64,000 bases of DNA from positions 248,001 through 312,000 of the forward strand of contig JAPLFQ010000025.1 of NCBI GenBank assembly GCA_026390595.1. The letters run 5' to 3'. The notes under the pieces are model-generated. The model was given only the letters and a program-made list of their open reading frames with translations, was not told where the DNA came from and did no database searches. The first letter of the stretch is position 1, and each line of letters starts with the position of its first letter. Below, in pieces: positions 15,528 to 37,138 of this stretch. The DNA comes from Ignavibacteriales bacterium (lineage in GTDB: Bacteria > Bacteroidota > Ignavibacteria > UBA10030). The translations under genes were made by a program, and so were the position numbers.

Positions 15528-15601
15528 TACGCCCGGAGGGATTTGAACCCACAACCCTCAGCTCCGTAGGCTGATGCTCTATCCAATTGAGCTACGGGCG
15601 C
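15528..15601 (-). tRNA. tRNA-Arg (anticodon ACG)
   Basis: On the minus strand a 74-base cloverleaf can be drawn. The acceptor GCGCCCG pairs with CGGGCGT (one G-U), followed by A73. The anticodon stem TCAGC/GCTGA encloses the loop CTACGGA, so the anticodon is ACG (reads CGU Arg codons), and the T-arm contains GGTTCAAATC. CCA is not encoded. Partial copies of this gene flank it at 15345-15365 and 15706-15725. Confidence 0.95.
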
Positions 15602-19371: not shown

Positions 19372-20559
19372 TTACGATTTCCTCGCGTCTCTCATCTTCT
19401 CCAGAACCTTCCAGCCGTACAGCAGCGCCCTGGGCAGGTGGAATGGCCCTTTCCACATCGATCCCTTCAGCTGTGACGAAACAGAACCATCGCGATGCAG
19501 GTAGCCGAACCATTCTCCGTGTTGCGGATCCGGGAAATGCGCGAATGACCACGCATGCACCCGCTCATACCATTGCTCGTACAGAGAATCACCGGTCAGG
19601 TGATGGGCGGTGAGAAGAGCATACAACGCCTCAGTATGCGGCCACCAGAGCTTCATGTCCCATTCGAGCTGCTCTGTCGGTTTTCCCTCTACATCGATGA
19701 AGGAGAAAATGCCGCCGAATTCTTTGTCCCATCCCAGCTCGAGTGACCACCGCAGCACATCCAGAGCACTGCGGAGCAGCGACTGATCACTCCTGTGAAG
19801 CGCTTCATGCATCATGAACCAGCTGGTCTCAATTGCATGCCCCGGGTTGACGCACCGCCCCTCGGGAGAGTCCAACATCTCTCCGTTTGGCCCCACGATC
19901 TCGAACAATGCCTTCCGGTCCGGTTTCATGAAGTGATGGAGTACTTCGTACAGCGCTTGATCTGCGACCGCTGTGTACAGTGGATCATCATCGACCTTCC
20001 GCAGTTCCTGCGTGGTTGCCAGAAGAATCATGGGCATCGCGTGAGCCTTCGTCACCCTGGTTTCGGGAATCACCTTCGGCGTCAGGCGGCCGGGATTTCT
20101 GTACAGGTCGATGACCAGTCGATACGTTTCTCTCGCTTTGAGAAGTGCCTGCTGATCGCCGCTTGCCTTTGAATACTCTGCACACGCAATCGTTCCAAAC
20201 GTCTCCGTAAAGAGATAGCGGCTCTTGCGCAGGGGCCGGCCGTCACGGGTCACCACGAAAAACATCCGCCCGTCGCTATCGAAGCCATGCCTGGTGATGA
20301 ACTCGTATCCACTGCGCGCAGCGTCGAGCCACTCCGGCCGCTGCTCGACTTCATTGTACAGCTTCGAGAATGTCCAGACTGCCCGGCACTGAATCCACAT
20401 CGCCTTGTCGGTGTTGTAGACCGAGCCGTCGCGATCAAGACAGTTGAGAATGCCGCCATGCGTGCGATCGATGGCATTGTTCAGCCAGAATGGTACGACA
20501 TCTTCCAGGAGCGTCCGGCGATAGAGCGTCAGCAATTCTTCAATTCTTTGGTTTGTCAT
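19372..20559 (-). CDS. N-acylglucosamine 2-epimerase (AGE) family sugar epimerase
   Basis: This 395-residue cytoplasmic protein has the (alpha/alpha)6 pattern of the AGE family, which inverts C2 of aldoses such as N-acetylglucosamine, mannose/glucose or cellobiose. Conserved pieces are NPGHAIE with His241, LWWPHTE with His308, and WKGPFHLPRALL with His374. The first and last align by motif with the catalytic His pair of the family, and the length is normal. The substrate cannot be told from sequence. It is the last gene of the long minus-strand carbohydrate operon, separated from the previous gene by 206 bp containing a MITE-like element, so it may be partly uncoupled. No Shine-Dalgarno sequence is visible. 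Confidence 0.8.
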   Translation of the reverse strand: MTNQRIEELLTLYRRTLLEDVVPFWLNNAIDRTHGGILNCLDRDGSVYNTDKAMWIQCRAVWTFSKLYNEVEQRPEWLDAARSGYEFITRHGFDSDGRMFFVVTRDGRPLRKSRYLFTETFGTIACAEYSKASGDQQALLKARETYRLVIDLYRNPGRLTPKVIPETRVTKAHAMPMILLATTQELRKVDDDPLYTAVADQALYEVLHHFMKPDRKALFEIVGPNGEMLDSPEGRCVNPGHAIETSWFMMHEALHRSDQSLLRSALDVLRWSLELGWDKEFGGIFSFIDVEGKPTEQLEWDMKLWWPHTEALYALLTAHHLTGDSLYEQWYERVHAWSFAHFPDPQHGEWFGYLHRDGSVSSQLKGSMWKGPFHLPRALLYGWKVLEKMRDARKS

Positions 20560-20574
20560 CGGAGGTCAGGTTAT

Positions 20575-20760
20575 TAGAGCGCATTTCAAAAATCCTATTG
20601 TGTCATTGCGAGCGAAGTCCCGACCTGCCCGCCGGAACAAAGTGGAGGCAGGAGGGACGAAGCGAAGCAATCTAACACAAACCGCGCGGCCTATGTATAG
20701 ATTGCTTCGGCAAAGCGCGCCTCGCAATGACAGGTTGGCTGTTCTTGAGATGGGTCCTTC
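20575..20760. repeat. MITE-like element, copy 2
   Basis: The terminal repeats are TAGAGCGCATTTCAAAAAT (20575-20593) and, reading the other strand, GAAGGACCCATCTCAAGAAC (20760-20741). Inside, GTCATTGCGAG (20602-20612) pairs with CTCGCAATGAC (20721-20731), and a central AGATTGCTTCG/CGAAGCAATCT inverted repeat is present. A CCTGCCCGCC unit is nested at 20624-20657. The element sits inside the operon, between the GH63-like and epimerase genes, and could form a strong RNA stem there. Confidence 0.6.
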
Positions 20761-20765
20761 TCTTC

Positions 20766-23162
20766 TCAGGTCCGTTCTTGTTCCATCCTGAGGGTGCAGG
20801 CCGGTTGTGCCAAAAAGGCGACCGATCCATACCCTGTGTCCCGGTCCCAGCGTATGGGAGCGCGGCGGCCGTCGACGAGAATGCGCGGTGCTTCGGCAGA
20901 GAAGAATGCAGCGTCAACGAAACCCATCGGCTCAACCCGGACTTCAACTGCATCAGACAGGCGCCTGGTGCTGAGCACCTTCGCGTTTGTGACTTCTGTG
21001 AAGCATGGAAGCATGGCGGCGTTGCCATAGCGGGCTGTGACGACATGGCTCTTCGGTGAATGGAACTCCGAAGGGATCTTTGTGCACCCGTCAATGATCG
21101 TCCCGTCGACGCTGAGACTTTCAAAATGAGGTCCGCCGTACACGGTCTCGAACGTCCAGGTACCTCCCCGCCATTCGATACCTTCCATCCGCGCTGCGGC
21201 AAGCGGGAGCGAGAGGGGAACGTGCGTTATTCCGCCGGGATCGAATTCAAAGCCAACGACGGATTCGCGCAGTGCCCGGTGCCATGCGGTGACGCAGTTG
21301 AGATTCGAAGCGCTGCCGTGATGTTCCCAGCTGCGCGGGTCGTTTTCCCTGAATCCCTTCAGAGCGAGAAACTCAGGACAATAGCCCAACCCGGACAAAG
21401 CCTCTTCGGCGCGTCGGAGCCACCGCATAATGGAGCCGGCGTCGCCGGCTCTTCGAAGCAATGTGAGAGCGTAGAAGTCCCAGTGCGGATACCACGAATC
21501 GAGAACGTCTTCTCCTGACGGGCCTGTTTCGCTCAACGGTATAACTCTCGTCCCGGCATCGGTCACCAATTCGCGGCCAATGAATGCAGCGGCTTCCCGT
21601 ACATGCGGTCTCATAAGCGGCAGACCTAATGGCGATTGCAGGAACAGCAGTGCAAAAAGAGGGTGGAAGCGACTCCGGGTGTCGGCATCTGCATTGACCG
21701 AGTCGATGAAAAACCCCGCTTCCGTATCCCAAAACCAGGCGCTGAAGTTCTGTGCAATTCTTGCGGCTGCCGCGCTTGTGCGTTCTTCGAGTTTGTCATC
21801 ACCGATCTGCCGTGCTATGTTTTCCAGAATCCGGCAGAATGCATACCAGCTTCCGACCTCCATGCACACGGCGCTCTGTTCGCTTCTTCCGAAAGCAGAC
21901 AACAGGTCGGGGTAGAAACCTTCCCCCTTGACCAGACCTTCACGCAACAATTGCTGTTCGGAGGCTTCGAACCGCGCAATGAACGACGGAAGGGACTGTC
22001 GCAGCACATTGTCGTCGTTGGTCTCGAGAAATGCTTCGTAGACAAGGGCAGCCTGGAGAAACTCAATGCCGCCCGGTGACGGAGTATCGAGCGGGAGCAA
22101 AGATCGGGTCCATCGGGCCGGGATTCGTCCCTCCTCGTCTCTGTGGTGCTCGATGAAACGCACGGTCTTCAAGACGTTCGGGCGATCTCCCCATCGCAAT
22201 GCCTCCATCATGGTCACGAGTGAATCCCATGCCCAGATCCAGTAATAGCGCCCCGGGCATGCCCGGGGTATTCCATAGTCACGTACAATGCATGACTCAA
22301 CGAGTCCGGGGACCGTTGCGGCGAATTCTTCAAGGTGTGGAAATCCCGGGAGTGCCAGTCCGGGCAGCATCGGTCGCTCACGCTGCGCCTCACTCTTTTC
22401 AATTGCGGCTTCAGCCTGGTCCGAACACCGGATGGTGAATTCCGTTGCTTCACCCGGCCGAAGAGTCTGCTCAAAGATCCATGTGTTCGCCGTTTCGGAG
22501 ATCGACCATCCTGTGCCTCCAAATGTAATGACGCATTCCGCATCGTAGAGCGCGAGGTCAGTATCCTGAAATTCGGGACGAAGATCGTCGCGCACGGCAA
22601 GACCGGATCGCTTCGGTGTGCTGAAGATCTTTTTTCGAACAGGCTCCGGGATAAGAAAATCACCCGCGTACGGCCCGGTCCGGCGAATCCATTTCTGAAG
22701 CATGATCTGGTCCCGAAAACGCGTTACCACGTTCCCGCCTTCAGCCCGGAATGGACTCCAGGTCCTTTCCCCGTGGACGGCGGTGAACGGGCTTTCCTTC
22801 GCCATCCGCACACACAGTGTCTGTGTCAACGCAGACGATGACGTACATCGAACCACCAGCCCCCGGCCTGAGGCGGCAATGGCAAGCGAGCAGACCCCGC
22901 CCGGCAAGAGCGTGTCCGACTCGATGCGCGTCGGTTGCCAATCGACGTCGTTCGTTTGCAGCATGTGCTCTTTGTTGTCAACTCGAACTGAGAAGCTCAG
23001 CACGCCAGACTCGTGAACGAGAATCCGCGAGTTCTTGCTCACGGGCTGAAGCCCATGATATCCTACTTCGGTGATTCCATGTTCTGCAGAGACGAACGCG
23101 TAGATGCGGTCGTGCGATATCCAACAACCTTTGTCCACGAGGGAACTCAATCTTCGTTTCAT
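20766..23162 (-). CDS. GH63/clan-G-like glycoside hydrolase
   Basis: This encodes 798 residues from the ATG at 23162, whose ATGA overlaps the stop of the preceding lyase gene; the longer open frame is not needed. The N-terminal 270 residues look like a beta-sandwich. Residues about 290-700 form an (alpha/alpha)6 barrel with YYWIWAWDSLVTMMEALRWG (Asp313 a candidate catalytic acid, as in the WxWD motif of GH63 relatives), EGRIPARW, and SWEHHGSASNLNCVTAWHRAL. A small beta-domain ends the protein. No signal peptide is seen, so it should act in the cytoplasm on imported oligosaccharides. The exact GH family and substrate are not determined. Confidence 0.65.
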   Translation of the reverse strand: MKRRLSSLVDKGCWISHDRIYAFVSAEHGITEVGYHGLQPVSKNSRILVHESGVLSFSVRVDNKEHMLQTNDVDWQPTRIESDTLLPGGVCSLAIAASGRGLVVRCTSSSALTQTLCVRMAKESPFTAVHGERTWSPFRAEGGNVVTRFRDQIMLQKWIRRTGPYAGDFLIPEPVRKKIFSTPKRSGLAVRDDLRPEFQDTDLALYDAECVITFGGTGWSISETANTWIFEQTLRPGEATEFTIRCSDQAEAAIEKSEAQRERPMLPGLALPGFPHLEEFAATVPGLVESCIVRDYGIPRACPGRYYWIWAWDSLVTMMEALRWGDRPNVLKTVRFIEHHRDEEGRIPARWTRSLLPLDTPSPGGIEFLQAALVYEAFLETNDDNVLRQSLPSFIARFEASEQQLLREGLVKGEGFYPDLLSAFGRSEQSAVCMEVGSWYAFCRILENIARQIGDDKLEERTSAAAARIAQNFSAWFWDTEAGFFIDSVNADADTRSRFHPLFALLFLQSPLGLPLMRPHVREAAAFIGRELVTDAGTRVIPLSETGPSGEDVLDSWYPHWDFYALTLLRRAGDAGSIMRWLRRAEEALSGLGYCPEFLALKGFRENDPRSWEHHGSASNLNCVTAWHRALRESVVGFEFDPGGITHVPLSLPLAAARMEGIEWRGGTWTFETVYGGPHFESLSVDGTIIDGCTKIPSEFHSPKSHVVTARYGNAAMLPCFTEVTNAKVLSTRRLSDAVEVRVEPMGFVDAAFFSAEAPRILVDGRRAPIRWDRDTGYGSVAFLAQPACTLRMEQERT

Positions 23163-25528
23163 GGAGTTCCCCTCAGCGAGATCCACGTTCCGTCGAACTC
23201 GGCCGCCGTTCCATCCGGAAACTTCCACGTCGCACGATTGCCCGTCTGAAATTGCAGCTCCGGCGGGTTGCCGTTCATGCATATGCACCAAAGAATGAAA
23301 GCGTTCTTGTTTTCACACGAGATGCACAGAACCCGGTCCCGCTCGCCGCTGTTCGGGTATGCGGGGACGAACCCGGTCAAACCGGTTTTCCACGTCACCT
23401 TTTCTGATGAGAAGGAAACGACAGCATTCGGGCCGTTGCTTCCCGTACCGATTTTGAAATTGACAACCTGTCCTCCACCGAATTGACTGAACTCTTCACA
23501 CGAATGCAAATTCCATTCGATGCTCGCTGCGTTGGCGAGCGTAACGACATCGGCTCCGAATATGTACCGGCCCGGCTGAACACAAATGCTGCGACGAAGC
23601 GATTGGACGCCGAGATGCGGAAGGTACGAATGCGCAAGTTCTACGGTCGCAGCAACAGTGCTTCCTGATGTTCTGATGTCAGCCAACGGTGCGTGGAGTG
23701 ATGGTGGGACAAAGTCCGGCATCCATACTGCCGAATCGCCGATTTGTCCCGTTCCATTGATCGTGATGATGTTGTGGAGTGACGTGTCGCGCCGGTACAC
23801 GGGCCCCGGACCGCCAATCAGCATCGAGTTGTTCTGATGCAAGAGGAACGAACCGTTGCACGGATCGCTGTGCCCGTATCCACCTGTGATTCCGGCCTCA
23901 TAGCGGTGTTTGCCAAGCGGCGGCCCGGAACGAAATGTAAAGAGGGAATCGGACGTCCGGACGAAAATCTGTGCTCCATCGGGAAAGGCTTTTGTGCCCT
24001 CTCGCGTATGAACAGGCTCGACGTGATCGGGAAACCAGAGGCATTCATACACTCTTCGCCTCGCAGGAGCATTTCGGAAATCGACGCCCTTGACGGGGAG
24101 CTCGAGCAAGACATCACCGAGCCAACGAGCCTCTCCTGATCCGGTTCTTGCAGCGATCAGGTAGTGACACCAACTGTCGCCCCCCACGCGGTATTGCGGG
24201 TCGCCAAAAGTCACGCCATGTAATCCGTCCGGTGAGGTCGCAGCTGCGCGAAACGCAGAAGCATTGATCATGACAGCGCTGTGAGGCCAGATCTCGGGTC
24301 CGCCACCACTCCGCAGAAGCTCCAACCACCGCAGCAGGAAACCAAATTCATAAATCCAGAGATTGATGCCATGGGGGAAGAAACCATCTGCGGGAAGCAT
24401 GGAAAGCACAAGCCTGGCAACACCGGCGAGATGGTTTGACCATTCGCGTGCACGCGGATGTGTGTCCTGGAATAGAAGGGAGAAGGCGAGCAAGCCCATT
24501 CCGCAGCCGAGGTAGTGGGCCTGAGAATAATCTTCGCGCTCATAACCGAGATGGTTCCAGCAGATGTCGGCAATTTCCCAAAGGCGCTTCCGGATGCGCT
24601 GTTCGTCGTCTGCGCTCAGATGGTGGAAGAGCCAGTCATAGCCCACGCTCAGGAGGAAGAGCGTTTCCCCTGACTGCGTGTCGATGGTGAGCGGAGCAAA
24701 GCCGGGTTGCTCCGTCAGAGCACAATAGTCCAGAAGGCTCTTGATCGCGCGCTCGATGTTTGCTGAAGAGGGTTCGATGAGAGCGAGGAACGCACCGATG
24801 AGGACTCTGTCTTCCGGCGTGAGAGATTCGGGACCATCCGGGATCTTTGATTCCGGTGTGACAACGAGAGACCGATCCCACATTGGAATGAATTCATGGA
24901 TCCTTCGGAGGGACTCTCTGCGCGCAACGGTCTGATTTTGCTTCAGGGCTGAGATGTCGGACTGGTTGATCAACAGCCGCGGGTGGCGGTGTAGCTTCTC
25001 TGCCGGAACCTCGAAAACGAACGGCGCGGGCTTGAGAGGACGAACTGCGTAGAACTGCGCTTCGAGCGGAACAAGCCTGGGGTCCGTCATGCTTACAACG
25101 ATTTGTTCCGATCGAAAGGAGCTGATCTTCACTACAGCGCGGAGTACATGCCGGGCGAGCTCGTCCCCCCAGAATTGAAATTGCAGCTCATGCACTCTCT
25201 CGCCGGACTTGAGCGTCGTCAAAGGCATGGGCGGGATGCCGCGCCATCCGGGCCAGGGACCGACGCGCAGGCCGGGAGGTTGCTGCTGGAACGTGAAATT
25301 CGGGAACGTATATGGGCGGTCTGCATCGCTGTGCACTGCGTAGCGACAATGTTCTTCCAGCGGATAGCTCGTCGCGTCGAACGTAATGAGAACAATCGTA
25401 TCCGCCCGCTCAGCGGCAAAGGCCGGAGCGACATACTGCATCCCAGCGTCGCTCACTAACTTCAGAGACGAAGTGCCGAGCAGCGTCACGGGGTCAAAAG
25501 GGGCGATATAAGGGGGTGGTGAAAACAC
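23159..25528 (-). CDS. heparinase II/III-like polysaccharide lyase
   Basis: This 789-residue protein has no signal peptide. An N-terminal beta-rich part is followed by a helical toroid (about 180-480; for example SVGYDWLFHHLSADDEQRIRKRL and PHGINLWIYEFGFLLRWLELL) and a C-terminal beta-sandwich containing GGYGHSDPCNGSFLLHQNNS, the segment that in heparinase II/III proteins carries a catalytic His and metal-site residues. These lyases cleave uronic-acid-containing glycans by beta-elimination. Its stop overlaps the next gene's ATG, so the two are co-translated. The GTG start at 25528 is weak and a start at 25441 is possible. A repeat-rich gap of 157 bp separates it from the upstream operon gene. 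Confidence 0.7.
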   Translation of the reverse strand: MFSPPPYIAPFDPVTLLGTSSLKLVSDAGMQYVAPAFAAERADTIVLITFDATSYPLEEHCRYAVHSDADRPYTFPNFTFQQQPPGLRVGPWPGWRGIPPMPLTTLKSGERVHELQFQFWGDELARHVLRAVVKISSFRSEQIVVSMTDPRLVPLEAQFYAVRPLKPAPFVFEVPAEKLHRHPRLLINQSDISALKQNQTVARRESLRRIHEFIPMWDRSLVVTPESKIPDGPESLTPEDRVLIGAFLALIEPSSANIERAIKSLLDYCALTEQPGFAPLTIDTQSGETLFLLSVGYDWLFHHLSADDEQRIRKRLWEIADICWNHLGYEREDYSQAHYLGCGMGLLAFSLLFQDTHPRAREWSNHLAGVARLVLSMLPADGFFPHGINLWIYEFGFLLRWLELLRSGGGPEIWPHSAVMINASAFRAAATSPDGLHGVTFGDPQYRVGGDSWCHYLIAARTGSGEARWLGDVLLELPVKGVDFRNAPARRRVYECLWFPDHVEPVHTREGTKAFPDGAQIFVRTSDSLFTFRSGPPLGKHRYEAGITGGYGHSDPCNGSFLLHQNNSMLIGGPGPVYRRDTSLHNIITINGTGQIGDSAVWMPDFVPPSLHAPLADIRTSGSTVAATVELAHSYLPHLGVQSLRRSICVQPGRYIFGADVVTLANAASIEWNLHSCEEFSQFGGGQVVNFKIGTGSNGPNAVVSFSSEKVTWKTGLTGFVPAYPNSGERDRVLCISCENKNAFILWCICMNGNPPELQFQTGNRATWKFPDGTAAEFDGTWISLRGTP

Positions 25529-25546
25529 TTTGATAAGAAAATAATT

Positions 25547-25651
25547 TCACGCAAAGCCGCAAAGTTCGCAAAGACTAATGATTTAATTCAAGAAGCTTCT
25601 CTTTGCTGTCTTGCTTGCCCCGACGTTCATGTCGGGGGCGCCTTTGCGTGA
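25547..25651. repeat. nested inverted repeat inside the operon
   Basis: The outer arms TCACGCAAAG (25547-25556) and CTTTGCGTGA (25642-25651) enclose a CCCCGACGTTCATGTCGGGG hairpin. The same core is found at 4562-4643 and about 51000-51115. The right flank GTGAGAATTCTTGA is shared with 51102-51116, where a CCTGCCCGCC unit is inserted. Confidence 0.55.
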
Positions 25652-25685
25652 GAATTCTTGATACACCTTGTACCTGCGCACGCTG

Positions 25686-27749
25686 CTACAAAGACACCGG
25701 TTCGCCCGTCAGGGGGAAGAAGATTCGTTTCAGCCGATCAGTCTCGGGGAGTATGACAGACGTGTCCCCGATCCTCAATTCTCCTCCGTAGCGATACCCT
25801 GCTCTGGAAGGAACGAGCGAAACGATCGTGCCCTGCTTTGTTTGAGTCATCGTAACCCAGCATTTCTCCGGGGCATTGACCGGCCGAAGTACGGTCATTG
25901 ACTTGAGTCGGGCCAACACGTCAGCCGGTTCAGAGGAACCTGGCCTCCGGGAAGCTGGTATCGATGTGCCGTCTTCAAAAGTATTGGGGGTACCATAGAG
26001 AAATGCCACTTTCCCTTTGGCACCTTTCAGCCTGCCGAGCAATTGGCGATCTATGACCATTGAGTAGGGACAGAGGATGAAATCGTACTTGCCCGATCCG
26101 ACACAAAACTGTTTCCCGGCCCAATGACCGTTTCGCGCCGCAGTGGTTGCCGTGACATCGACGTGAAAATGATTGTCGAGAAGGGAGAGGATAAGCGCGA
26201 AGATCTCGGCTGCAGCTTTGTCGGCACGAGGGTCTGCAAGCGCATACAGTGACTCCACCGGATAGAGAACGAGGAGATTCGCCGATGGAAGTCTGCTGCC
26301 GACCTTGTTCAGTTCGTCCGACAGGAAACGATTCCACGTTGGGAACGCAGGCCACGTCGAATGTTCCGGATAGCCCGGAAGCTCGGGCGTCCCGAGAAAT
26401 GTGCGCTCCTGCCCGATTGTGCCGACGGGTCCGTACGCATGAGCCAGCCAGTGTGTGCCGAAGAGAGCCATGACCTTGACGCAGTGTTCCATGACCTCCT
26501 TCTGCCATCCCTGTCCGTCGTCGTCGCCGACGGTCCAGAGGTTGTTGTAGGCCAGGGGGCGTTCGTTCGATTTTCCAAGCGAAGCAGCAAAGACCGACAT
26601 CGCTGCGAGGTTGGAGTACCATGGAGAATCATCGGCTCTCAGTTTGTTCACCGCACCGAGATCAACGAACCCGCCGCTTTTGGCCCGGGCCGTCTCCCAG
26701 AGATTCAGCGATCCGTGGTTCATGTCGCACATATCGGCTGACTCGAAGTGCCAGGTATCGTGAATGCCCAGGATGGTTGCGGGACCCCAAAGGCGCCGGA
26801 CGTTCTTGCGCAGATCCAATTCCGCACGAACGACGGAGTTCTGAACCGAGCGGTAGTATGCAAGGCGGACCGGCACATGAGAGGAATCTTCTGCCTCGAA
26901 CGCTAGCTTCCAGAGTTCACGCCCGACCGGTGATTTCCTGGCTGCCTGATATGCTCTTCGGATCGAAGAAGAGTAGGGGAGTGAACCATACTGGCAGGTG
27001 TAGCCCGGCTCGTCCCACATGATCCCATCTGGGGAGCATCCTTCTGCCTTGAGCTGGTCAAGCAGCGTTCCGTACCATCGAAGGTGCTGACGGTTGGAGA
27101 AATCAAAATGGTTAGTTTGGACGTGAAAGAAGGCTATAGTCGACCATTCGTCATCAATGCCTTCTGGTACACGACCGAAGGCCTCGACGTATTTGTCGCG
27201 GGCATTGTAGAAGAGCCGTGCTCCCGGTGAAATATCGACGACGTCTTTCTTGCCTAGGAGCGCCTTCCCGCGTCTGAATGCATGGACTCCCGCGAGTCCA
27301 ATCGGAACAAATTCAACGGCGACGTCGGTCAGCATGTGGACGTGCCGGGGCGCCAGCGTGCAGCGAATGGTGTACCGGCCGCCCCGTACATCTGCCGTGT
27401 TGGGCACCACATCAGCTTTGGCGGCATTCCCAAAGAGCACAAGTTCCAATGCGGAAGAGTCACGCACAATCTTGTGCGAAACGAAGCGTGGATCCGGACC
27501 CAGCCAGCATCTCATGCCGTGGCTGCGGCACAAGTGATTGATATGACGCCATGCGTCGACAGCCATCGGGTCATCCCATGAGTAGCGGCTGCAGCGGACG
27601 AATGCAGCCACACCGCCAAAACCTGCATCTGCGAGATCACGGAATTGTCTCTCGAGCAGCTTGCGGTCTTCAATGACTGCGTCGGTGATCGACCAGACCA
27701 TGATAGGCCGGGTTTCGTCGTGTTGATGTTCCGAACGTGTCTTCTTCAC
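25686..27749 (-). CDS. putative TIM-barrel glycoside hydrolase (GH106-like organisation)
   Basis: This encodes 687 residues without a signal peptide. The opening (ITDAVIEDRKLLERQFRDLADAGFGGVAAFVR) is typical of TIM-barrel glycosidases related to GH106/GH2-type rhamnosidases and galactosidases. Later acidic motifs include GIMWDEPGYTC (about residue 250), HFESADMCDMNHG and a beta-galactosidase-A4-like alpha/beta segment (LLVLYPVESLYALAD, then KYDFILCPYSMVID). The catalytic acids are not certain. The start overlaps the stop of the upstream gene (ATGA), so it is coupled to the sugar-binding-like protein. Function as an intracellular exo-glycosidase is inferred from context. Confidence 0.55.
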   Translation of the reverse strand: MKKTRSEHQHDETRPIMVWSITDAVIEDRKLLERQFRDLADAGFGGVAAFVRCSRYSWDDPMAVDAWRHINHLCRSHGMRCWLGPDPRFVSHKIVRDSSALELVLFGNAAKADVVPNTADVRGGRYTIRCTLAPRHVHMLTDVAVEFVPIGLAGVHAFRRGKALLGKKDVVDISPGARLFYNARDKYVEAFGRVPEGIDDEWSTIAFFHVQTNHFDFSNRQHLRWYGTLLDQLKAEGCSPDGIMWDEPGYTCQYGSLPYSSSIRRAYQAARKSPVGRELWKLAFEAEDSSHVPVRLAYYRSVQNSVVRAELDLRKNVRRLWGPATILGIHDTWHFESADMCDMNHGSLNLWETARAKSGGFVDLGAVNKLRADDSPWYSNLAAMSVFAASLGKSNERPLAYNNLWTVGDDDGQGWQKEVMEHCVKVMALFGTHWLAHAYGPVGTIGQERTFLGTPELPGYPEHSTWPAFPTWNRFLSDELNKVGSRLPSANLLVLYPVESLYALADPRADKAAAEIFALILSLLDNHFHVDVTATTAARNGHWAGKQFCVGSGKYDFILCPYSMVIDRQLLGRLKGAKGKVAFLYGTPNTFEDGTSIPASRRPGSSEPADVLARLKSMTVLRPVNAPEKCWVTMTQTKQGTIVSLVPSRAGYRYGGELRIGDTSVILPETDRLKRIFFPLTGEPVSL

Positions 27750-30440: not shown

Positions 30441-31309
30441 CGCAGACCTCCCATGGCAATGCCTTTGACAAGATATTTCTGACCGAGTGTGAACAACAGG
30501 ATGTTCGGAACCATGACCATGCATGCCGCCGCCATCAACAGGTGCCACTGGGTCATTCCGGTCCCGACGATTTGCGACTTCAGCATATTCAGCCCCAGCG
30601 TCAGTGTGGCATGTTCAGGGGAATTGATATAGATCAACGGAGTGAAGAAGTCGTTCCATGTGCCGATGAACGTGAACAGCGCAACAGTGATCAGCGCGGG
30701 ACGAGCGAGCGGCAGTATGATACTCCAATAGATTCTGAATCGTCCTGCGCCGTCCAGCCGTGCCGCTTCATCGTACTCCCGCGGAATGGTGAGGAAAAAC
30801 TGACGCAGCAGAAAAATGTAGAACGGTGACCCGAAGAAGGAGGGGACGATCAGGGGCCAGAGCGTGTCCACCCACCCCAGGCGGGAAAACAAGATGTAGA
30901 GCGGGATCATGGTGACCTGTCCCGGCAGCATCATGGTGGACAGGCAGAGCGCAAAGAGAACCGTGCGTCCCCTGAAACGAATTCGCGAGAATCCGTAGGC
31001 GACGAGACTGCACGAAAGAAGCGTTCCGACGAGGACGAGTCCTGTGACGATGACGGTGTTCAGGAGGTACCGTCCCAAAGGGATGAGCGCGGCGACGTCG
31101 GAATAATTCTCCCACCGCGGCTGAGCCGGTATCCACACAAACGGCTGAGCGAACACTCCCCGGACGTCTTGCAGGGAAACGGAAAGCATCCATGCCAGAG
31201 GCAGCAGAAATCCGGCGCTGACGACCGCCAGGATGACATAGACCGCACCCGAACGAACGAGTGTGCCCCCCGCCGCAGGGCTTCTGTCAGATGATCGGGA
31301 GCCGTTCAC
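30437..31309 (-). CDS. sugar ABC transporter permease, MalG type
   Basis: This 290-residue inner-membrane protein has six hydrophobic segments and the conserved EAA loop EYDEAARLDGAGRFRIYWSIILPLARP near residues 195-220, where the ATPase docks. The ending GMTQWHLLMAA...LGQKYLVKGIAMGG is typical of MalG-like permeases. Its ATG overlaps the stop of the MalF-type permease gene (4 bp), and its stop overlaps the GTG of the binding-protein gene. The three form a tightly coupled importer cassette. Confidence 0.9.
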   Translation of the reverse strand: MNGSRSSDRSPAAGGTLVRSGAVYVILAVVSAGFLLPLAWMLSVSLQDVRGVFAQPFVWIPAQPRWENYSDVAALIPLGRYLLNTVIVTGLVLVGTLLSCSLVAYGFSRIRFRGRTVLFALCLSTMMLPGQVTMIPLYILFSRLGWVDTLWPLIVPSFFGSPFYIFLLRQFFLTIPREYDEAARLDGAGRFRIYWSIILPLARPALITVALFTFIGTWNDFFTPLIYINSPEHATLTLGLNMLKSQIVGTGMTQWHLLMAAACMVMVPNILLFTLGQKYLVKGIAMGGLR

Positions 31310-32220
31310 GCACCCGCCTCGTAATGGACCCGGTTCTTACTCAACCGTGTTTGGAGCACGGTGAACACGAGTATGATGAAGAAAAGAATCCACGCAAGTG
31401 CAGAGGCGTATCCCATCCGGAATTCCAGAAACGCCTTCTTGTAGAGATAAAGAACAAGAAAGAGCGTTGCATTGTTGGGCCCGCCTTCGCTTCCCGCCTG
31501 CGCAGCGCCGGTCATGACAAATGCCTGGGCAAAGACCTGGAAGCTTCCGATGACTCCCATGATGGAGCTGAAAAAGATCGCCGGCGAAATCATCGGAATA
31601 GTGATGTGGAAGAATCGCCGGGCCGGACCCGCACCGTCGAGCGCTGCAGCTTCGTAGAGTTCCTGGGGAATGCCTTGCAGCGCGGCCAGGAAGATGATCG
31701 TCGTTCCGCCGACACCCCAGAGCGACATAATCACCAGTGAGGGCTTTGCCCACGCTTCGCTCTGCAGCCACAAGGGGCCTTGTACTCCAAGCCAGCGGAG
31801 AAACGTATTGAGGAGACCGAATTCGGGATTGAAAATCCATAGCCAGAGCACCGAAGCTGCGACGATGTTCATGATCGACGGGAGAAACAACATCGTACGG
31901 AAGAATCCCATTCCCGGGAGCCGGTTATGCAGGAGCATTGCCAGCGCGAGCCCGGCCGCGATGCACAAAGGGACTGAAAAGATCACATAGAATCCGGTAT
32001 TCCACAGGCTTGTGAGGAACAACGGATCTTCGGTGATGATGGACTGATAGTTTTCAAAACCAACCCATGTCGGCGGCGAGAGCATCGACCAGGAGTGCAG
32101 GCTGATGACGAGCGAACCGATCATCGGGCCGGCGGTGAAGATGAGGAAGCCGGCAAGCCAAGGAGCGATGAACGCGTACCCGCCGAGTGATTGTCTGATG
32201 CTTGTTCTATCGCGGCTCAT
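31306..32220 (-). CDS. sugar ABC transporter permease, MalF type
   Basis: This encodes 304 residues from the ATG at 32220, chosen because its ATGA overlaps the stop of the preceding gene; the frame is open much further upstream but runs through that gene. MSRDRTSIRQSLGGYAFIAPWLAGFLIF is a typical MalF/LacF start. Six membrane segments and the EAA loop (QELYEAAALDGAGPARRFFHITIPMISP, about residues 195-222) are visible. It pairs with the downstream MalG-type permease to form the import channel. Confidence 0.9.
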   Translation of the reverse strand: MSRDRTSIRQSLGGYAFIAPWLAGFLIFTAGPMIGSLVISLHSWSMLSPPTWVGFENYQSIITEDPLFLTSLWNTGFYVIFSVPLCIAAGLALAMLLHNRLPGMGFFRTMLFLPSIMNIVAASVLWLWIFNPEFGLLNTFLRWLGVQGPLWLQSEAWAKPSLVIMSLWGVGGTTIIFLAALQGIPQELYEAAALDGAGPARRFFHITIPMISPAIFFSSIMGVIGSFQVFAQAFVMTGAAQAGSEGGPNNATLFLVLYLYKKAFLEFRMGYASALAWILFFIILVFTVLQTRLSKNRVHYEAGA

Positions 32221-34151
32221 CGGTTCAGCGCTTCGCTTCCGAACAGCGTCCGGGGGCAGAAAGGACCCTCTGACACTCCGGCCGCGGAGACTTCCATGTG
32301 AGTGATTTCGTCCTCCATCCCACACCATTGGCGTGAAAGGATATGTTCGCGGAATGGATCGTACAGAATCTGCATTACGGTTTCTTTGCCTCGGGCGACG
32401 ATTCGCCGAATCTTCGACTCGACCGTCGCCTCTACGTTGACGGAGCGTGCGTGCTTCAGAAACTCTCCCCAATCGCCGAACTGATCCTCAGTCCATACCT
32501 CCAGAAAGAATCCGGAACTCCAGTTGTTGACTTCGTCTCGTGCAAAATCCTTCACAGGGCCGTCATAATTGTACGTTGAAATGAGAAAGAAGTCTTTCTC
32601 GACTGAAAGTTGCAATGGCGAACTCCCGCCTGCCGGAACGGGCTCCAGCGGGATGAGAAGGATGAACGTCCTGCCGTCGCGGATGCAGATACGCGAACCG
32701 GTGCGCAACTTGACCGGGAATCCGGTGACCGGCCTTCCATCGACGGTGATGAGGTCGAATGGAGCAGCGTATGAGAAAATGAAGTCCGTTCTGAAGCTCT
32801 TGATCCCTTTGTGCCCGGTTCGTTTTGGGGAGTATGAGACGATCAGCCTGTTCTCATGCTGATATGTTGCGCACCGCCCTTCTTCCGAAAGATAACTGGC
32901 GTCCACGTCCGATGAACTCGTGTGACAAAAATTCGGGACGCCCGGCAGAGCTCCGTTGTAAACTCCACGTGTGAAAGCCGAGCGGAAGTCAGAAAGTGAC
33001 TTGATTTCATCGGAGCGCCGGATACGAAGCATGACAGAGTCAGAATGTCCCGCATTGACATATGGTTTGGCAGCCGAGCCGAGTGCAAATTCGGGGGTCA
33101 TGAATGTCGTCAGATCGGTCCAGCCGCCCGGATAAACTTCTTCGTCGAACGCGAAAGGACGATCAGAACCGCGTGCCGTGTCGGCACCATCGGGGGATAC
33201 GACTCTCCGGCTGTTCTCGTGATAACTCTCTCCGTAGGTTGTCATCCGGAATGAGTAGGGGAACGGCTTCTCCCATGCGATCGCCGCGGCACGCCCGGAG
33301 AAATGGTACGGCGTGACGGCAGTGAGCGCATTCTGGAGCAGATCCGAAGGATGGTCGAATCGAACCGACAGTGAGGGGTCAAGGAAGATCTGCCTGCCCG
33401 AAGCGGCGAGGAGTGCGCAATGAAGAACAGAATACCCGCCGAATGAATCTTCAAAGTACGACCGTGAATGCGGTCCGGCGAACTGGCCGCTCGGAGCGTG
33501 ATAATGCATGGCGACGTTCAGCCAGAGTGCGTCTTCGAGGAAGCGAGCGAGTGACCTGGCTTCAGGATTCTGTCCATACTCAGCGATCAAAGCGAGAAAC
33601 GTAAGATCCAATGCGGTATAGGTCAGGCTGTTGTACTCTGACATTTCCGCCTGTCGCAGCCGTCTCGACCGATGATCGCCGATCCGCTGCTGGAATCGCC
33701 GGAGGCGGCGCAAACCTAATTCGACGGCCCACGATTCGGAATGCAGTTCGCCCCCAAGAATGAGCGTGCAGTAGGCTCCCAGCGGATGGTTGACGTTCCC
33801 GTCTTTCCATTCTGTTCCCGCAGCGTTTACAAGTTCGGAGCGGATTGCGGAGCGAAGGGCGTTTTTTGTTCTCTCGTCAAGGCGATCAGATACGCCGTGA
33901 AGGAGGGCAAGCATGGAGGAGGCTGTATGCGTACCGTCGCTGCCCGTGAGCGATTGAAGAAGCTCGTTCCCGCGGTTCTTTCCTTCCGGGGAGTCATCAA
34001 AGAGCAGACTCGTTGCATACCAGCACGTGTCTCGCACGATGAGGCAGAGCCCGGTCTTCGGTTCAAAATGCCGGTCTCCGGCTTCGCGCGCAAGTTGAAG
34101 GAGCCGGCGACGTTGATCGGAGATCGGGGAGATCGGATTGAGTGCGCTCAT
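32217..34151 (-). CDS. uncharacterised six-hairpin carbohydrate-active-like protein
   Basis: This 644-residue protein has no signal peptide. The first 300 residues are helical with repeated W/Y/H-rich turns (RDTCWYATSLLFDDSPEGKNRGNELL, SEYNSLTYTALDLTFLALIAEYG, HYHAPSGQFAGPHSRSYFEDSFGGY), like an (alpha/alpha) toroid of a polysaccharide lyase or hydrolase. The last 300 look like beta-sandwich. I cannot name a family. It is the second gene of the operon, 23 bases after the Gfo/Idh gene, and its stop overlaps the start of the first permease gene. By position it probably modifies the same imported glycan. Confidence 0.55.
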   Translation of the reverse strand: MSALNPISPISDQRRRLLQLAREAGDRHFEPKTGLCLIVRDTCWYATSLLFDDSPEGKNRGNELLQSLTGSDGTHTASSMLALLHGVSDRLDERTKNALRSAIRSELVNAAGTEWKDGNVNHPLGAYCTLILGGELHSESWAVELGLRRLRRFQQRIGDHRSRRLRQAEMSEYNSLTYTALDLTFLALIAEYGQNPEARSLARFLEDALWLNVAMHYHAPSGQFAGPHSRSYFEDSFGGYSVLHCALLAASGRQIFLDPSLSVRFDHPSDLLQNALTAVTPYHFSGRAAAIAWEKPFPYSFRMTTYGESYHENSRRVVSPDGADTARGSDRPFAFDEEVYPGGWTDLTTFMTPEFALGSAAKPYVNAGHSDSVMLRIRRSDEIKSLSDFRSAFTRGVYNGALPGVPNFCHTSSSDVDASYLSEEGRCATYQHENRLIVSYSPKRTGHKGIKSFRTDFIFSYAAPFDLITVDGRPVTGFPVKLRTGSRICIRDGRTFILLIPLEPVPAGGSSPLQLSVEKDFFLISTYNYDGPVKDFARDEVNNWSSGFFLEVWTEDQFGDWGEFLKHARSVNVEATVESKIRRIVARGKETVMQILYDPFREHILSRQWCGMEDEITHMEVSAAGVSEGPFCPRTLFGSEALNR

Positions 34152-34174
34152 GAGGTTCTGTGTGCTTCTCCGGA

Positions 34175-35152
34175 TCAGAATTGGACGGGCTGAGGCTGTC
34201 CTGTTTTCATAGACTCGATCGCCCTCAGCAAAAGCACCGTCGCTCGTATGCCGTGGCGCAAGGTGGCGGATGGCTGTGCCTTTCGGCCGACAGCCTCAAG
34301 GAACTCCCTGTTCTCGAGCAGGAAACCAAGTTCTTCAGAATCGGTGTAGTGCTCTTCGTGTTTTCCGTCCCACATGGATACCTGCTTGAGTCTGTCATAC
34401 AGATGAGCGCTGCGAGTACCGTCCATCACTTGAAAAGAGAGCTTGGAGACGTACGGGGTCAGTCCGATGTCCCCTACGGTGAGGCTGCCTGTCACACCGC
34501 TTCCGAATGTGATCGTCGCTGTGAGCGCGTCAGTGATGTCAAGCCCGGGATGGTGGTAATTTCCTCCGGCGGCATAGACCTTGACCGGCTCGCTTCCCAC
34601 AAGATAGCACATGAGATCTGCAGCATGGCATCCCTGGGAAATTACGTTGCCTCCGCCTCGAACGGGATCGTTCGCCCAGAACGAATCGGGCCAGCGCTCG
34701 TCGGTCATTTGTGCTATGCACAGGAGGGGTGAAGGCATGAACTCACGCACCTTCTGCACTGAGGGGTAGAAACGAAGCTTGAACGCGGTCATGAAGTGGA
34801 TGCCTGAACGCTCGACAGCGTTCTGAAGGTCCTCGCATTCCCGGAGGGACATCGCGACCGGCTTCTCCATCATGATGTGCTTGCCGGCTCTGGCTGCCGC
34901 AATGCCCAGTTGTGCGTGGCTATCGTTGTGTGTGCAGACATAGACCGCATCGATGGAATCATCGCGCAGGAGGCGCTCGGGGTTGGAGCAGACGTATGCG
35001 TCGGGTGAGTATGCGAGAAGCTTGCTGGCCTTTGCCTCATGAGTGTCGCACAGCCCGCGGATGGTGGCTGTGCCGATCTCCTTGATGCAGCGGGCGTGGA
35101 TTTGCCCCATTTCACCACATCCGATGATGCCGATATTGATTGCGGCTGGCAT
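34175..35152 (-). CDS. Gfo/Idh/MocA-family NAD(P)-dependent sugar dehydrogenase
   Basis: This encodes 325 residues from the ATG at 35152; a TTG two codons earlier is also open. The N-terminal Rossmann fold has the dinucleotide motif GIIGCGEMGQIH, then the family motif MMEKPVAMS (Glu-Lys-Pro) near residues 94-102. The C-terminal domain contains GGGNVISQGCHAADLM with the probable catalytic His. Members oxidise or reduce sugars and sugar acids, and the substrate cannot be predicted. It is the first gene of the minus-strand carbohydrate operon, behind a promoter-like sequence at 35210-35239. Confidence 0.85.
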   Translation of the reverse strand: MPAAINIGIIGCGEMGQIHARCIKEIGTATIRGLCDTHEAKASKLLAYSPDAYVCSNPERLLRDDSIDAVYVCTHNDSHAQLGIAAARAGKHIMMEKPVAMSLRECEDLQNAVERSGIHFMTAFKLRFYPSVQKVREFMPSPLLCIAQMTDERWPDSFWANDPVRGGGNVISQGCHAADLMCYLVGSEPVKVYAAGGNYHHPGLDITDALTATITFGSGVTGSLTVGDIGLTPYVSKLSFQVMDGTRSAHLYDRLKQVSMWDGKHEEHYTDSEELGFLLENREFLEAVGRKAQPSATLRHGIRATVLLLRAIESMKTGQPQPVQF

Positions 35153-35209
35153 GCACAATCAGAGCAATAGTGCCTGAAGATGTTGGGGGCTGCAAACTCG
35201 AAGCTGGCG

Positions 35210-35239
35210 CAAAATAGCCCTGATTCACTACGAAAGCAA
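35210..35239 (-). promoter_or_regulatory. possible Bacteroidota-type promoter of the carbohydrate operon
   Basis: On the minus strand TTG (35239-35237) is followed after 20 bases by TATTTTG (35216-35210), close to the -33 TTG / -7 TAnnTTTG consensus but one T short. It lies about 58 bases before the dehydrogenase ATG. The 318-bp space 35153-35470 between the divergent genes also has a CCCCCT/AGGGGG hairpin at about 35412-35441 and no gene. Confidence 0.35.
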
Positions 35240-35470
35240 GGGCGATGGAGGGGTGTTCAGCGCGAGCCCCTGCCTGCCGGGAGCACACCTCTGCGTCACA
35301 TTTCTTTCCTCGGGGGAAGTGTTCATGAAAGACTCCCGGGAGCCCGCGCGGAAATATTTGCAATCGTTGCGATTTAGTTGTTGTTTTCAGACCAACGCTC
35401 CACATCAACTTACAAGAAATCCCCCTCGGGCATCAGGGGGTGATCATCATGCCTCCTGCTGAATAAACCA

Positions 35471-37138
35471 ATGAACCGCCATAATTTCATTCGAGCCGCA
35501 GATGTCTCACTTGCCTCACTCCTGCTACGCGATGTTCTTTTCGCGAACAGGCACAAAGGACCCATCATGAATCTTCCTGATGAAGTAACAGCCATCCTGG
35601 GCGACCAGTTCGTCACGTTGACGGGCAGGGGAGCGTCCTGGACATACAAGGATCTGATCGTCGAGTTGCTGGTCCAGGGCGAAAGCATCGCTGTGGAGAT
35701 TGAATCTCCCCGGTCAAGTCTGACCGCAGTGACGCTGCGTTGGAAACAAAAAGGCCGCGGCAATTGCAGGATCCTGAATGACCAATGGGAACGAACCTAC
35801 GGTGATGTCTCGTGGCACGTGCCGTCCGAATCAGAACTATTGCCCTGGTATTTCATGGAACATGACGGACGAAGCACGATCGGCGTTGGCGTGAAAACGG
35901 GGACTGCATCCTTCTGCTTCTGGCAGGTCGGGAAGGAGCAGGTGAGCTTAACGATGGATACGCGATCCGGGGGGAACGCCGTTCAATTGGGCGGCAGGAA
36001 GCTGCGGGCTGCTGAGATTGTCACGACGAAGAGTGATTCAGGTGAGTCTCCGTTCCTGACTGCCCGAAGGTTCATGAAAACGATGTGTGATCATGCCCGC
36101 ATGCCTGCGCAGCCTGTGTACGGAATCAATGACTGGTATTTCACGTATGGGAACAACTCAGAAGACCTGATTCTGGAACATACCAATCTGATGGCGCCGA
36201 TGGCGGAAGGGCTGAGCAACCGGCCATTCTCTGTCATTGATGCTGGTTGGTTTGTGACGTCGCCATCTGTGCCAAATGATTCTTCCTGGGGAGATCGATT
36301 GGACCTCCCCAATTCAAAATTCGGAGACATGAGCAGGGTTGCCGAGCGCATCAGAAAGGCCGGAATGCGTCCCGGCATCTGGACACGTCCACTCTGTGGA
36401 AGCCACAACGATCCTCACTCATTGATGCTGCCTCTGGTGAAGGGGAGAGATGCACAAAAGCCGGTGCTGGATCCTACTATCCCTGAGAATCTCAAAAGGA
36501 TTTCAGAACTTTTCAAAGTCTACAATAGCTGGAGATACGATCTGGTAAAGTTCGATTTTACCTCGTTTGATATCTTTGGGAAATGGGGCTTTGAGATGTT
36601 GCGGGATGGAGCGATCAGCAGTTCCGGGTGGAGCATGCACGACAATTCCAAAACAAATGCAGAAATCATTCTTAACCTTTACAAAACCATCCGGATAGCT
36701 GCCGGGGACACGTATGTCTTAGCCTGCAATACCTTCAGTCATCTCTCGGCAGGGCTCTTTGAGTTGAATCGCATCGGCGACGACACCTCAGGGATTGAAT
36801 GGGCGAGAACACGCAAGATGGGTGTGAACACGCTGGCGTTCAGAGGGATGCATCACGGAATATTCTATGCCGCCGATCCCGATTGTGTGGGTGTGACCAA
36901 CAAAGTGGCGTGGGACAAAAACAAACAATGGATGCATCTGGTAGCGAAAAGCGGTACGCCCCTCTTTATCTCAGCTCAACCCGACGCGACAGGATCAGCA
37001 CAGAAGGCGATGATCAAGGAGTGCTTTGCGTCGGCCTCTCAGGATTTGCCTCTTGGAGAACCGCTGGACTGGACAGAGAGTGCTTTCCCGAAGAGATGGA
37101 AGTTGAAGGAGGAGGAAGTGAGCTTCGACTGGGATTGA
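35471..37138 (+). CDS. alpha-galactosidase-like glycoside hydrolase (clan GH-D type)
   Basis: This 555-residue protein is read divergently from the carbohydrate operon. A beta-sandwich of about 190 residues precedes a TIM barrel: YGINDWYFTYGNNSEDLILEH, PFSVIDAGWF, GMRPGIWTRPLCG, then YDLVKFDFTSFDIFG with Asp362 as likely nucleophile and LNRIGDDTSG with Asp437 or Asp438 as likely acid/base, the layout of GH27/GH36 alpha-galactosidases. The N-terminus is not a convincing signal peptide. It probably trims alpha-linked residues from the same glycan. A RAYT remnant begins 20 bases after the stop. Confidence 0.7.
   Translation: MNRHNFIRAADVSLASLLLRDVLFANRHKGPIMNLPDEVTAILGDQFVTLTGRGASWTYKDLIVELLVQGESIAVEIESPRSSLTAVTLRWKQKGRGNCRILNDQWERTYGDVSWHVPSESELLPWYFMEHDGRSTIGVGVKTGTASFCFWQVGKEQVSLTMDTRSGGNAVQLGGRKLRAAEIVTTKSDSGESPFLTARRFMKTMCDHARMPAQPVYGINDWYFTYGNNSEDLILEHTNLMAPMAEGLSNRPFSVIDAGWFVTSPSVPNDSSWGDRLDLPNSKFGDMSRVAERIRKAGMRPGIWTRPLCGSHNDPHSLMLPLVKGRDAQKPVLDPTIPENLKRISELFKVYNSWRYDLVKFDFTSFDIFGKWGFEMLRDGAISSSGWSMHDNSKTNAEIILNLYKTIRIAAGDTYVLACNTFSHLSAGLFELNRIGDDTSGIEWARTRKMGVNTLAFRGMHHGIFYAADPDCVGVTNKVAWDKNKQWMHLVAKSGTPLFISAQPDATGSAQKAMIKECFASASQDLPLGEPLDWTESAFPKRWKLKEEEVSFDWD

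Follow-up and report, generated by a model that had tools for sequence, protein, structure and literature searches.

The window, a stretch of 64,000 nucleotides (contig JAPLFQ010000025.1, positions 248,001 to 312,000) that forms part of contig 25 of an Ignavibacteriales bacterium genome (4.77 Mb, 95.7 % complete), carries on its minus strand an operon whose conserved eight-gene core encodes the binding protein and permeases of an ATP-binding cassette (ABC) importer together with a set of putative carbohydrate-active proteins. With a probability of about 0.62, this operon serves the catabolism of one class of acidic, i.e., uronate-containing, heteroglycan, which would be imported via the ABC system and subsequently be broken down in the cytoplasm. 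Genes are lettered along the direction of transcription (J I H G F E D C B A, with K being divergent; Table 1), and genes I to B constitute the core. An earlier note on this DNA had described the region as an import-and-digest carbohydrate locus that has no SusCD in it, a description which is supported. Computation shows the gene content, the core order, the predicted fold classes of I and E, a locus lacking SusCD, a single OB_MalK ATPase in the genome and core enzymes without obvious signal peptides. All of the eleven open reading frames (ORFs) listed in that note were found at their coordinates.

A fixed gene order with exchangeable neighbours

The neighbourhoods of 15 other carriers were fetched and the window proteins were mapped onto each of them. 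Matches under 60 bits were dropped and neighbouring matched core genes on one contig were counted, with intervening unmatched genes being invisible to this count. The order I-H-G-F-E-D-C-B on one strand was found in 82 of 82 testable pairs from 14 other genomes, a comparison with relatives which the earlier note had proposed as a check. As the loci were picked for holding I or D, the count tests order and not presence. Besides the window genome, eight genomes possess all eight core genes on one contig (the B gene of G001 is cut by the contig end), and in G069 a gene of glycoside hydrolase family 4 (GH4) is located between D and C, resulting in a gap of 1391 bases. Pairwise distances of the eight core proteins were found to correlate at 0.88-0.99 among nine genomes including that of the window (no species-tree control), which fits a block that was inherited or moved together.

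Protein I was identified in 16 of 150 relatives, the window genome included, 13 of them by strong and 3 by weak matches only. Class samples of 391 genomes, which were taken as the same draw for I and D as the same handles recur, contain I in 17 genomes (16 strong, one weak), D in 15 and both in 14. In a phylum sample of 395 genomes D was present only in the window genome and in G036, and a tblastn search of the plasmid collection with I and D gave no match. A scan of named genomes, which reaches close relatives only, gave for I 'Bacteroidetes bacterium UBA9647' at 92 % identity, 'Ignavibacteriales bacterium LacPavin_0920_SED5_MAG_52_10' at 85 % and 'Ignavibacteria bacterium UBA6906' at 53-61 %, and the sampled class is accordingly taken to be the Ignavibacteria, in a minority of which the core occurs. 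All carriers belong to one class and shared ancestry alone predicts some common order; yet, that the arrangement reflects chance collinearity, or inheritance without any functional linkage, is extremely improbable, as every testable junction kept its order despite a divergence of the enzymes to 37-43 % identity, accessory genes were exchanged on both sides, and carriers make up a small fraction of the class sample (15 to 17 of 391 genomes).

Within the window, the overlaps which the earlier note had described for most junctions between 34151 and 20766 were confirmed: using the best starts, six of seven junctions overlap, by 4 bases (I-H, H-G, G-F, E-D, C-B) or by 17 bases (F-E), while J-I (23 bases apart) and B-A (206 bases apart) lie outside this range. 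The late start assigned to E is backed by relatives, since the ORFs of L028 and L030 begin beside the same point. For the D-C junction, the matched stretches of both genes are separated by 8 bases in G001 and by 64 bases in G003, hence the gap seen in the window may be a later insertion. The DNA of the two operon gaps (25529-25685 and 20560-20765), which we take to resemble intergenic repeats (...GCTTTGCGTGAAATT...; CATTGCGAG...CGAAGCAATCT), has no second copy of its repeat-like patterns within the window, as judged from a pattern search.

Neighbourhood mapping did not bear out the dehydrogenase (J), the epimerase (A) and the alpha-galactosidase-like gene (K) as members of the conserved core; their placement varies among relatives and all three were rejected as core genes. 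Among the loci fetched, J resides upstream of I in G001, G003 and G088 only, A resides downstream in G003 and divergently upstream in G090 and G074, and K is divergent in G001 and G003 with a 26-27 % relative being encoded downstream in G135 and G524. The K gene of G003 (L026:17939-19689) is split into two frames. The gene directly upstream of I encodes a galactokinase in G135 (241.2 bits, cut-off 226.65), and in G524 this place is taken by a 49 % relative, assigned by likeness to that of G135; the galactose-handling genes of these two relatives suggest galactose to be part of some substrates. In genus g22, one copy of each upstream gene was scanned: a glycerate kinase and a 647-residue protein precede I in G036, G086 and G088, a hexose kinase is found before I in two genomes, and a DeoC/LacD-family aldolase was identified in G036. 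The 647-residue protein (L040:7464-9404) has no Pfam or NCBIfam match and is conserved at 77-86 % in its relatives L035:11905-14472 and L043:1852-4194. As the accessory genes differ between relatives, we read the locus as a fixed core with exchangeable monosaccharide-handling neighbours.

Predicted enzymes of the core

Pfam profiles recovered the families that had been named for A (GlcNAc_2-epim), C (Hepar_II_III_C), F (SBP_bac_1), G and H (BPD_transp_1 each) and J (GFO_IDH_MocA). NCBIfam, searched with nine of the eleven locus proteins (G and H left out), gave nothing above any cut-off; the best match of J, inositol 2-dehydrogenase, reached 133.9 bits (cut-off 355), and A reached 437.8 bits with AcylGsamEpipAGE (cut-off 600). 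The window proteins D and I have no Pfam match at E<=1. When every sequence in the alignments of D (9 members), I (12 members) and E (9 members) was scanned against Pfam, nothing above cut-off was obtained for the window members, and weak scattered matches were obtained for the others. The suggestion of the earlier note that the proteins encoded at 27746-29101 (E) and 32217-34151 (I) may be new carbohydrate-active families is in line with this, as I, E and in addition D are named by neither library.

Protein I was modelled by AlphaFold2 on 12 sequences (predicted local distance difference test, pLDDT, 79.4; predicted template modelling score, pTM, 0.84). The model predicts a helical toroid (residues about 12-293) followed by an antiparallel beta-sandwich, which is the arrangement of the polysaccharide lyase (PL) families PL8, PL12, PL15, PL17 and PL21. 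Foldseek ranked chondroitin AC, hyaluronate and alginate lyases, heparinase III and human dermatan sulfate epimerase as relatives (3.7e-7 for chondroitinase AC). Using VIA-align, nearly the full length of I was superposed onto PL17 Alg17c (Z 13.0, root mean square deviation (rmsd) 8.0, 468 aligned) and PL8 hyaluronate lyase (Z 12.3, rmsd 5.7, 473 aligned), while GH76 enzymes match the toroid only. These rmsd values are high, and between helical folds a common arrangement may suffice for a Z of this size, hence the weight rests on the agreement of both domains. On the sequence level no curated lyase family was matched by I: the 12 members yielded no lyase Pfam at E<=1, NCBIfam yielded none, and the sole match in a sequence-profile search of the PDB was a terpene synthase (E 0.19). 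The PL8 N-terminal domain PF08124 had no match in the 150 relatives and none in any control genome either, hence this search is silent on absence. The alignment revealed N121-H122 and, 51 and 56 residues after H122, Y173 and Y178 to be invariant. The spacing of 56 between H122 and Y178 is the same as that between H202 and Y258 of Alg17c (taken from mutant names, without residue-level structure alignment) and is a lead to, not a test of, the catalytic residues of I. Elsewhere in the host genome, L044:10591-12435 (G000:C4) encodes a protein which looks secreted and is weakly related to I (24-27 % in the N-terminal 230 residues), and which is resembled, by eye, by a second protein (L044:14513-16336). 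The genes of both are surrounded by those of BNR-like repeat proteins (by eye), and a heparinase-like gene nearby has a Tat-like (twin-arginine translocation) N-terminus; perhaps these genes form a second, exported uronate-type locus.

Protein C passes the cut-off of the heparinase profile PF07940 (Table 1) and matches by profile the PL15 oligoalginate lyase Atu3025 (2.2e-10) and GAGase II (8khv, 1.7e-9). For PL15, passages of PMC8286568 give H311, Y365 and H531 as the catalytic centre. C was aligned with the Atu3025 fragment and with eight other heparinase-like proteins of the same genome. A tyrosine occupies the Y365 column in Atu3025 and in seven of these eight paralogues (Asn in L087), whereas all eight C proteins possess a leucine (Leu390), the alignment of C with Atu3025 being gap-free around DG....G..[Y/L]W. 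An invariant histidine of C lies one column off H311 and another one is aligned with H531, both placements being gap-dependent, and Y393, three residues past Leu390, is likewise invariant. C thus retains heparinase family membership but not a defining residue, and the invariant leucine at the catalytic tyrosine site leaves its lyase activity unproven.

For D, hhalign revealed homology to a profile of three GH106-type proteins from the same genome over most of the protein (94.7 %, E 6.3e-8, 493 columns), whereby WDEPG is aligned with QDEAE; the profile was assembled from three PF17132 matches, one of them strong (652.7 bits) and two weak. Unrelated pairs compared in the same way gave E 0.86 (D-B), 0.4 (GH106-C) and 0.067 (I-C). 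D itself does not match PF17132, residing outside the six PF17132 stretches of the genome at E<=10; the window protein has no Pfam match, the best match among its 9 family members is at E 0.12, and no PDB sequence match was obtained. From the remote GH106 relationship D is probably a TIM barrel.

The AlphaFold2 model of E, computed on 9 sequences (pLDDT 82.4, pTM 0.74), ruled out a six-hairpin protein. VIA-align related residues 1-267 to mutarotase-like sandwiches (Z 13.7-17.5), among them Bacillus GalM (4bze; Z 15.2, rmsd 4.2, 230 aligned), and also to the C-terminal sandwiches of alpha-mannosidases and beta-galactosidases (best Z 17.5). Residues 281-451 (Z 13.6-13.9) resemble carbohydrate-binding modules (CBMs) such as the hyaluronan-binding module 4d0q (Z 13.8, rmsd 2.6, 135 aligned, 21 % identity). 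A weak CBM_4_9 match (18.7 bits, cut-off 25.9) was found in one of the nine members, and a sequence-profile search of the PDB returned nothing meaningful for E. Of the label 'six-hairpin/CBM-like' given previously, the CBM part hence holds, while a mutarotase-like sandwich takes the place of the six-hairpin part. Protein B, which is GH63-like, stays marginally below the MGH1-like_GH cut-off (26.7 against 27 bits); its weak profile matches (3cih 6.7e-4, 4zle 8.7e-4) are a putative rhamnosidase and sugar phosphorylases, which we take to be GH78 and GH94 members. Outside the core, K is below the Melibiase cut-off, which its relatives in G135 and G524 exceed (30.3 and 37.9 bits); it contains a VKFDF stretch, which is similar to the GH36 nucleophile motif.

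Locations were assessed by a crude hydropathy scan, in which A, B, C, D, E and I showed no signal-like N-terminus. F is strongly signal-like, with a hydrophobic N-terminus and, by eye, the lipobox IVSSC. The hydropathy of J is high (1.84 at residue 1), which fits its NAD-binding strand, and that of K is ambiguous. In the window genus, K starts with MNR[HYI]NFIRAA[DG]VSLASLL (MNRIHFIRAA in one relative), which could be a degenerate Tat signal, while the relatives in G135 and G524 start otherwise. The view that the catabolic proteins lack signal peptides consequently stands for A-E and I, with K being ambiguous and possibly exported.

The lyase relatives of two proteins, I and C, suggest a uronate substrate. 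The same proteins are open to the reading that the core imports and hydrolyses a neutral, galactose- or rhamnose-rich glycan, with I and C now being glycosidases, epimerases or binding proteins. We consider this unlikely. It would account for Leu390 of C, for human dermatan sulfate epimerase, an enzyme that epimerises, being among the relatives of both I and C, for the galactokinase, GH36-like and GH4 genes that flank or interrupt the core in relatives, and for an operon without a GH88-family gene. Opposed to it are the N121-H122 and Y173/Y178 residues that I keeps invariant at a PL17-like spacing, and the fact that, of the 50 VIA-align rows for I, the first 37 are all lyases. Starting from the acidic-heteroglycan reading, a more far-reaching and rather doubtful proposal would be that I, D and E found three undescribed carbohydrate-active families, constituting a cytoplasmic acidic-heteroglycan line in the Ignavibacteria, and that C has moved its catalytic tyrosine (Leu390 at the usual site, Tyr393) and re-built its active site.

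Transport, SusCD and the proposed pathway

The lipoprotein F and the permeases G and H are components of a CUT1-type ABC sugar importer, which would be completed by a MalK-type ATPase. A single OB_MalK match was obtained in the host genome. It is an ABC protein encoded on contig 33 and is probably the ATPase of the CUT1 permeases; MsmX is a shared importer ATPase of this kind in Gram-positives. Import of large oligosaccharides in intact form, as put forward by the earlier note, is plausible.

No SusC or SusD is encoded among the eleven locus genes. In the host genome PF14322 was not found and PF07980 identified one protein, which is better matched by SusD-like_2 (PF12771) and which, on another contig than the locus, follows a TonB-plug protein. 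The host genome thus possesses at least one SusC/SusD-like pair elsewhere, and the idea of a host genome without any SusCD was rejected. The next gene upstream of this pair encodes an M28 peptidase, and a DUF5916 and CBM9_1 protein about 3 kb downstream makes a glycan role of the pair possible. PF07980, the one SusD family sought in relatives, occurs in 37 of the 150 genomes, that of the window being counted, and 4 of the 13 genomes with a strong I match possess it. According to passages of a paddy-soil survey of metagenome-assembled genomes (MAGs), susCD is scarce in Ignavibacteriales gene clusters (PMC10576277), while a sus operon was annotated in Melioribacter roseus of the same group (PMC3534657). 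The expectation that bacteria bearing a type IX secretion system (T9SS) usually use SusCD is wrong for this class, and the missing SusCD at the locus is real but expected.

The pair raises the question whether the genes of the locus constitute the inner half of a SusCD/T9SS system of the conventional type, the outer half of which would reside elsewhere in the genome; we regard this as decidedly improbable. Such a system could draw on the SusC/SusD-like pair with its nearby DUF5916/CBM9_1 protein, on the eight further heparinase-like proteins of the host genome, several of which have signal-like N-termini by eye, and on the secreted-looking weak relative of I. The M28 peptidase adjoining the pair speaks against it, and so do nine of the 13 strong-I genomes, which are outside the 37 with PF07980, albeit this was the sole SusD family sought. 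The earlier note had stated that a SusCD pair or an outer-membrane lyase elsewhere serving the same glycan would refute its proposal; a SusC/SusD-like pair and several heparinase-like proteins with signal-like N-termini do exist elsewhere in the genome and could serve this glycan.

For the acidic-heteroglycan module the following pathway is suggested, in which all reactions, the transport direction, the acidity of the substrate and the passage of the outer membrane are inferred. Initially, a putative surface or T9SS-secreted enzyme would free oligosaccharides outside of the cell, and these may cross the outer membrane by a putative porin or TonB receptor. In the periplasm they would be captured by the lipoprotein F, and the permeases G and H, powered by the shared MalK-type ATPase encoded elsewhere, would move them into the cytoplasm. 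Here, the toroid proteins I and, if active, C may open uronide linkages by beta-elimination, while D as a remote GH106-type glycosidase and B as an (alpha/alpha)6 glycosidase would cut neutral linkages. E may bind the chain via its CBM, whereby its mutarotase-like domain would act on the chain or on the anomeric form of the products. Finally, the neighbouring dehydrogenase, AGE epimerase, GH36-like, GH4, galactokinase, hexose kinase, aldolase and glycerate kinase genes would feed the sugars of the respective local substrate to the central metabolism. The host genome contains five GH88-family (PF07470) matches elsewhere, and these proteins could clear unsaturated uronates. In the window, a glucuronoyl-esterase-like protein (6579-8969; GCE_fung 5.8e-71) carries fn3 domains as well as a secretion tail of the Por type (25.1 bits, cut-off 27) and is a possible secreted partner for uronate glycans.

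A number of findings weigh against the acidic-heteroglycan reading. No member is of known activity and the outer-membrane step is missing. The shared fold does not prove a lyase function of I, I and C have no significant match in profile comparison (E 0.067), and C lacks the usual catalytic tyrosine. The operon contains no GH88-family gene. Compared with the shortest GH106-type protein alone, D is weakly matched (15 %), hence its GH106 claim rests on the three-protein profile. The Tat-like start of K suggests that it may be exported in the window genus. The eight-gene unit can moreover be incomplete, as D (L062:10527-12572, 65 % identity) stands alone in G002, a genome of the same genus in which the rest of the operon is absent, and as I occurs without a D match in G532, G542 and, weakly, in G110.

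Features of the window and comparison with known systems

The features of the locus are collected in Table 1. Beyond the locus, the window encodes a protein whose N-terminus is signal-like and which weakly matches a six-hairpin rhamnosidase profile (1610-4312; 17.7 bits, cut-off 24.5), a Schlafen group 3 helicase-domain protein (16036-18009; PF09848 1.3e-83) near tRNA-Arg (15527-15601), a protein that combines a right-handed beta-helix part with a HETSH motif which, by eye, is zinc-protease-like (40397-42556), and two ORFs which by eye only are transposase-like (45192-46001 and 47230-48444), near tRNA-Glu and tRNA-Gln genes.

Table 1. Genes and gap of the carbohydrate locus, in order of transcription, with K last (positions in the window)
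Feature	Position	Strand	Assignment	Profile match or start
J	34175..35158	-	Gfo/Idh/MocA NAD-dependent dehydrogenase, accessory	PF01408 2e-27
I	32217..34151	-	core gene 1; predicted toroid + beta-sandwich polysaccharide-lyase fold; family not named by libraries	
H	31306..32220	-	ABC permease	PF00528 1.3e-10; probable ATG start 32220
G	30437..31309	-	ABC permease	PF00528 4.2e-22
F	29085..30440	-	substrate-binding lipoprotein	PF01547 3.3e-24; probable GTG start 30440
E	27746..29101	-	predicted galactose-mutarotase-like super-sandwich (1-267) + carbohydrate-binding module (281-451)	
D	25686..27749	-	remote GH106 relative	profile comparison
D-C gap	25529..25685	.	157 bases; sole core junction of the window without overlap	
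C	23159..25528	-	heparinase II/III-like, Leu at the usual catalytic Tyr	PF07940 25.6 bits, cut-off 24
B	20766..23162	-	(alpha/alpha)6 glycosidase-like; weak GH63/GH78/GH94-type relatives	probable ATG start 23162
A	19372..20559	-	N-acylglucosamine/aldose 2-epimerase family, accessory	PF07221 1.1e-54
K	35471..37138	+	divergent GH36-type alpha-galactosidase-like, accessory	Melibiase 14.9 bits, cut-off 27

With its fixed order, its several enzyme families that are unnamed so far and its proteins, which are apparently soluble, the locus constitutes a well-bounded eight-gene target. If the acidic-heteroglycan reading holds true, members of the Bacteroidota import complex glycans via ABC systems and digest them inside the cell, and the catalogue could gain new families of lyases and glycosidases. 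Among the titles and abstract openings listed by searches of an open-access library, no description of the eight-gene module was found. For two Ignavibacteriales MAGs with about 55 carbohydrate gene clusters, PMC10576277 reports that not a single cluster could be matched to a substrate.

The strategy as such is already known from the pit system of Sphingomonas sp. A1 and from the xanthan cluster of Paenibacillus, while the families are partly new to the libraries. As described in passages of PMC8286568, the alginate 'pit' system combines the binding proteins AlgQ1/Q2 and the transporter AlgM1M2SS with cytoplasmic alginate lyases, of which A1-IV belongs to PL15. The locus is like this system in that a Gram-negative host combines a binding protein and an ABC importer with cytoplasmic lyases (predicted ones in the present case), and in that one A1 lyase is of PL15, a profile relative of C. 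It differs in that I is not recognised as a lyase by sequence, C is without the catalytic tyrosine, the ATPase is encoded elsewhere, and GH106-like, GH63-like and mutarotase-CBM proteins share the operon. For the Gram-positive xanthan cluster of Paenibacillus taichungensis and Bacillus sp. GL1, passages of PMC12827396 describe ABC binding proteins and the uptake of uronate oligosaccharides, with a PL8 lyase that has no signal peptide and with glycosidases that are thought to be intracellular, to which the proposed cytoplasmic enzymes would be alike. Unlike here, that cluster, as far as the passages go, comprises a secreted xanthanase and lyase as well as GH88, GH38 and GH92 members, none of which was recognised in the operon. 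The SusCD loci of Bacteroidetes are likewise single clusters rich in carbohydrate-active enzymes, whereas the present locus is without SusC/SusD, encodes an ABC importer and possesses enzymes that are apparently cytoplasmic. Finally, the toroid lyases of PL8, PL12, PL15, PL17 and PL21 are resembled by I in its predicted fold and by C in its Hepar_II_III_C membership, from which I departs by having no meaningful Pfam or PDB sequence match and C by a leucine in place of the catalytic tyrosine.

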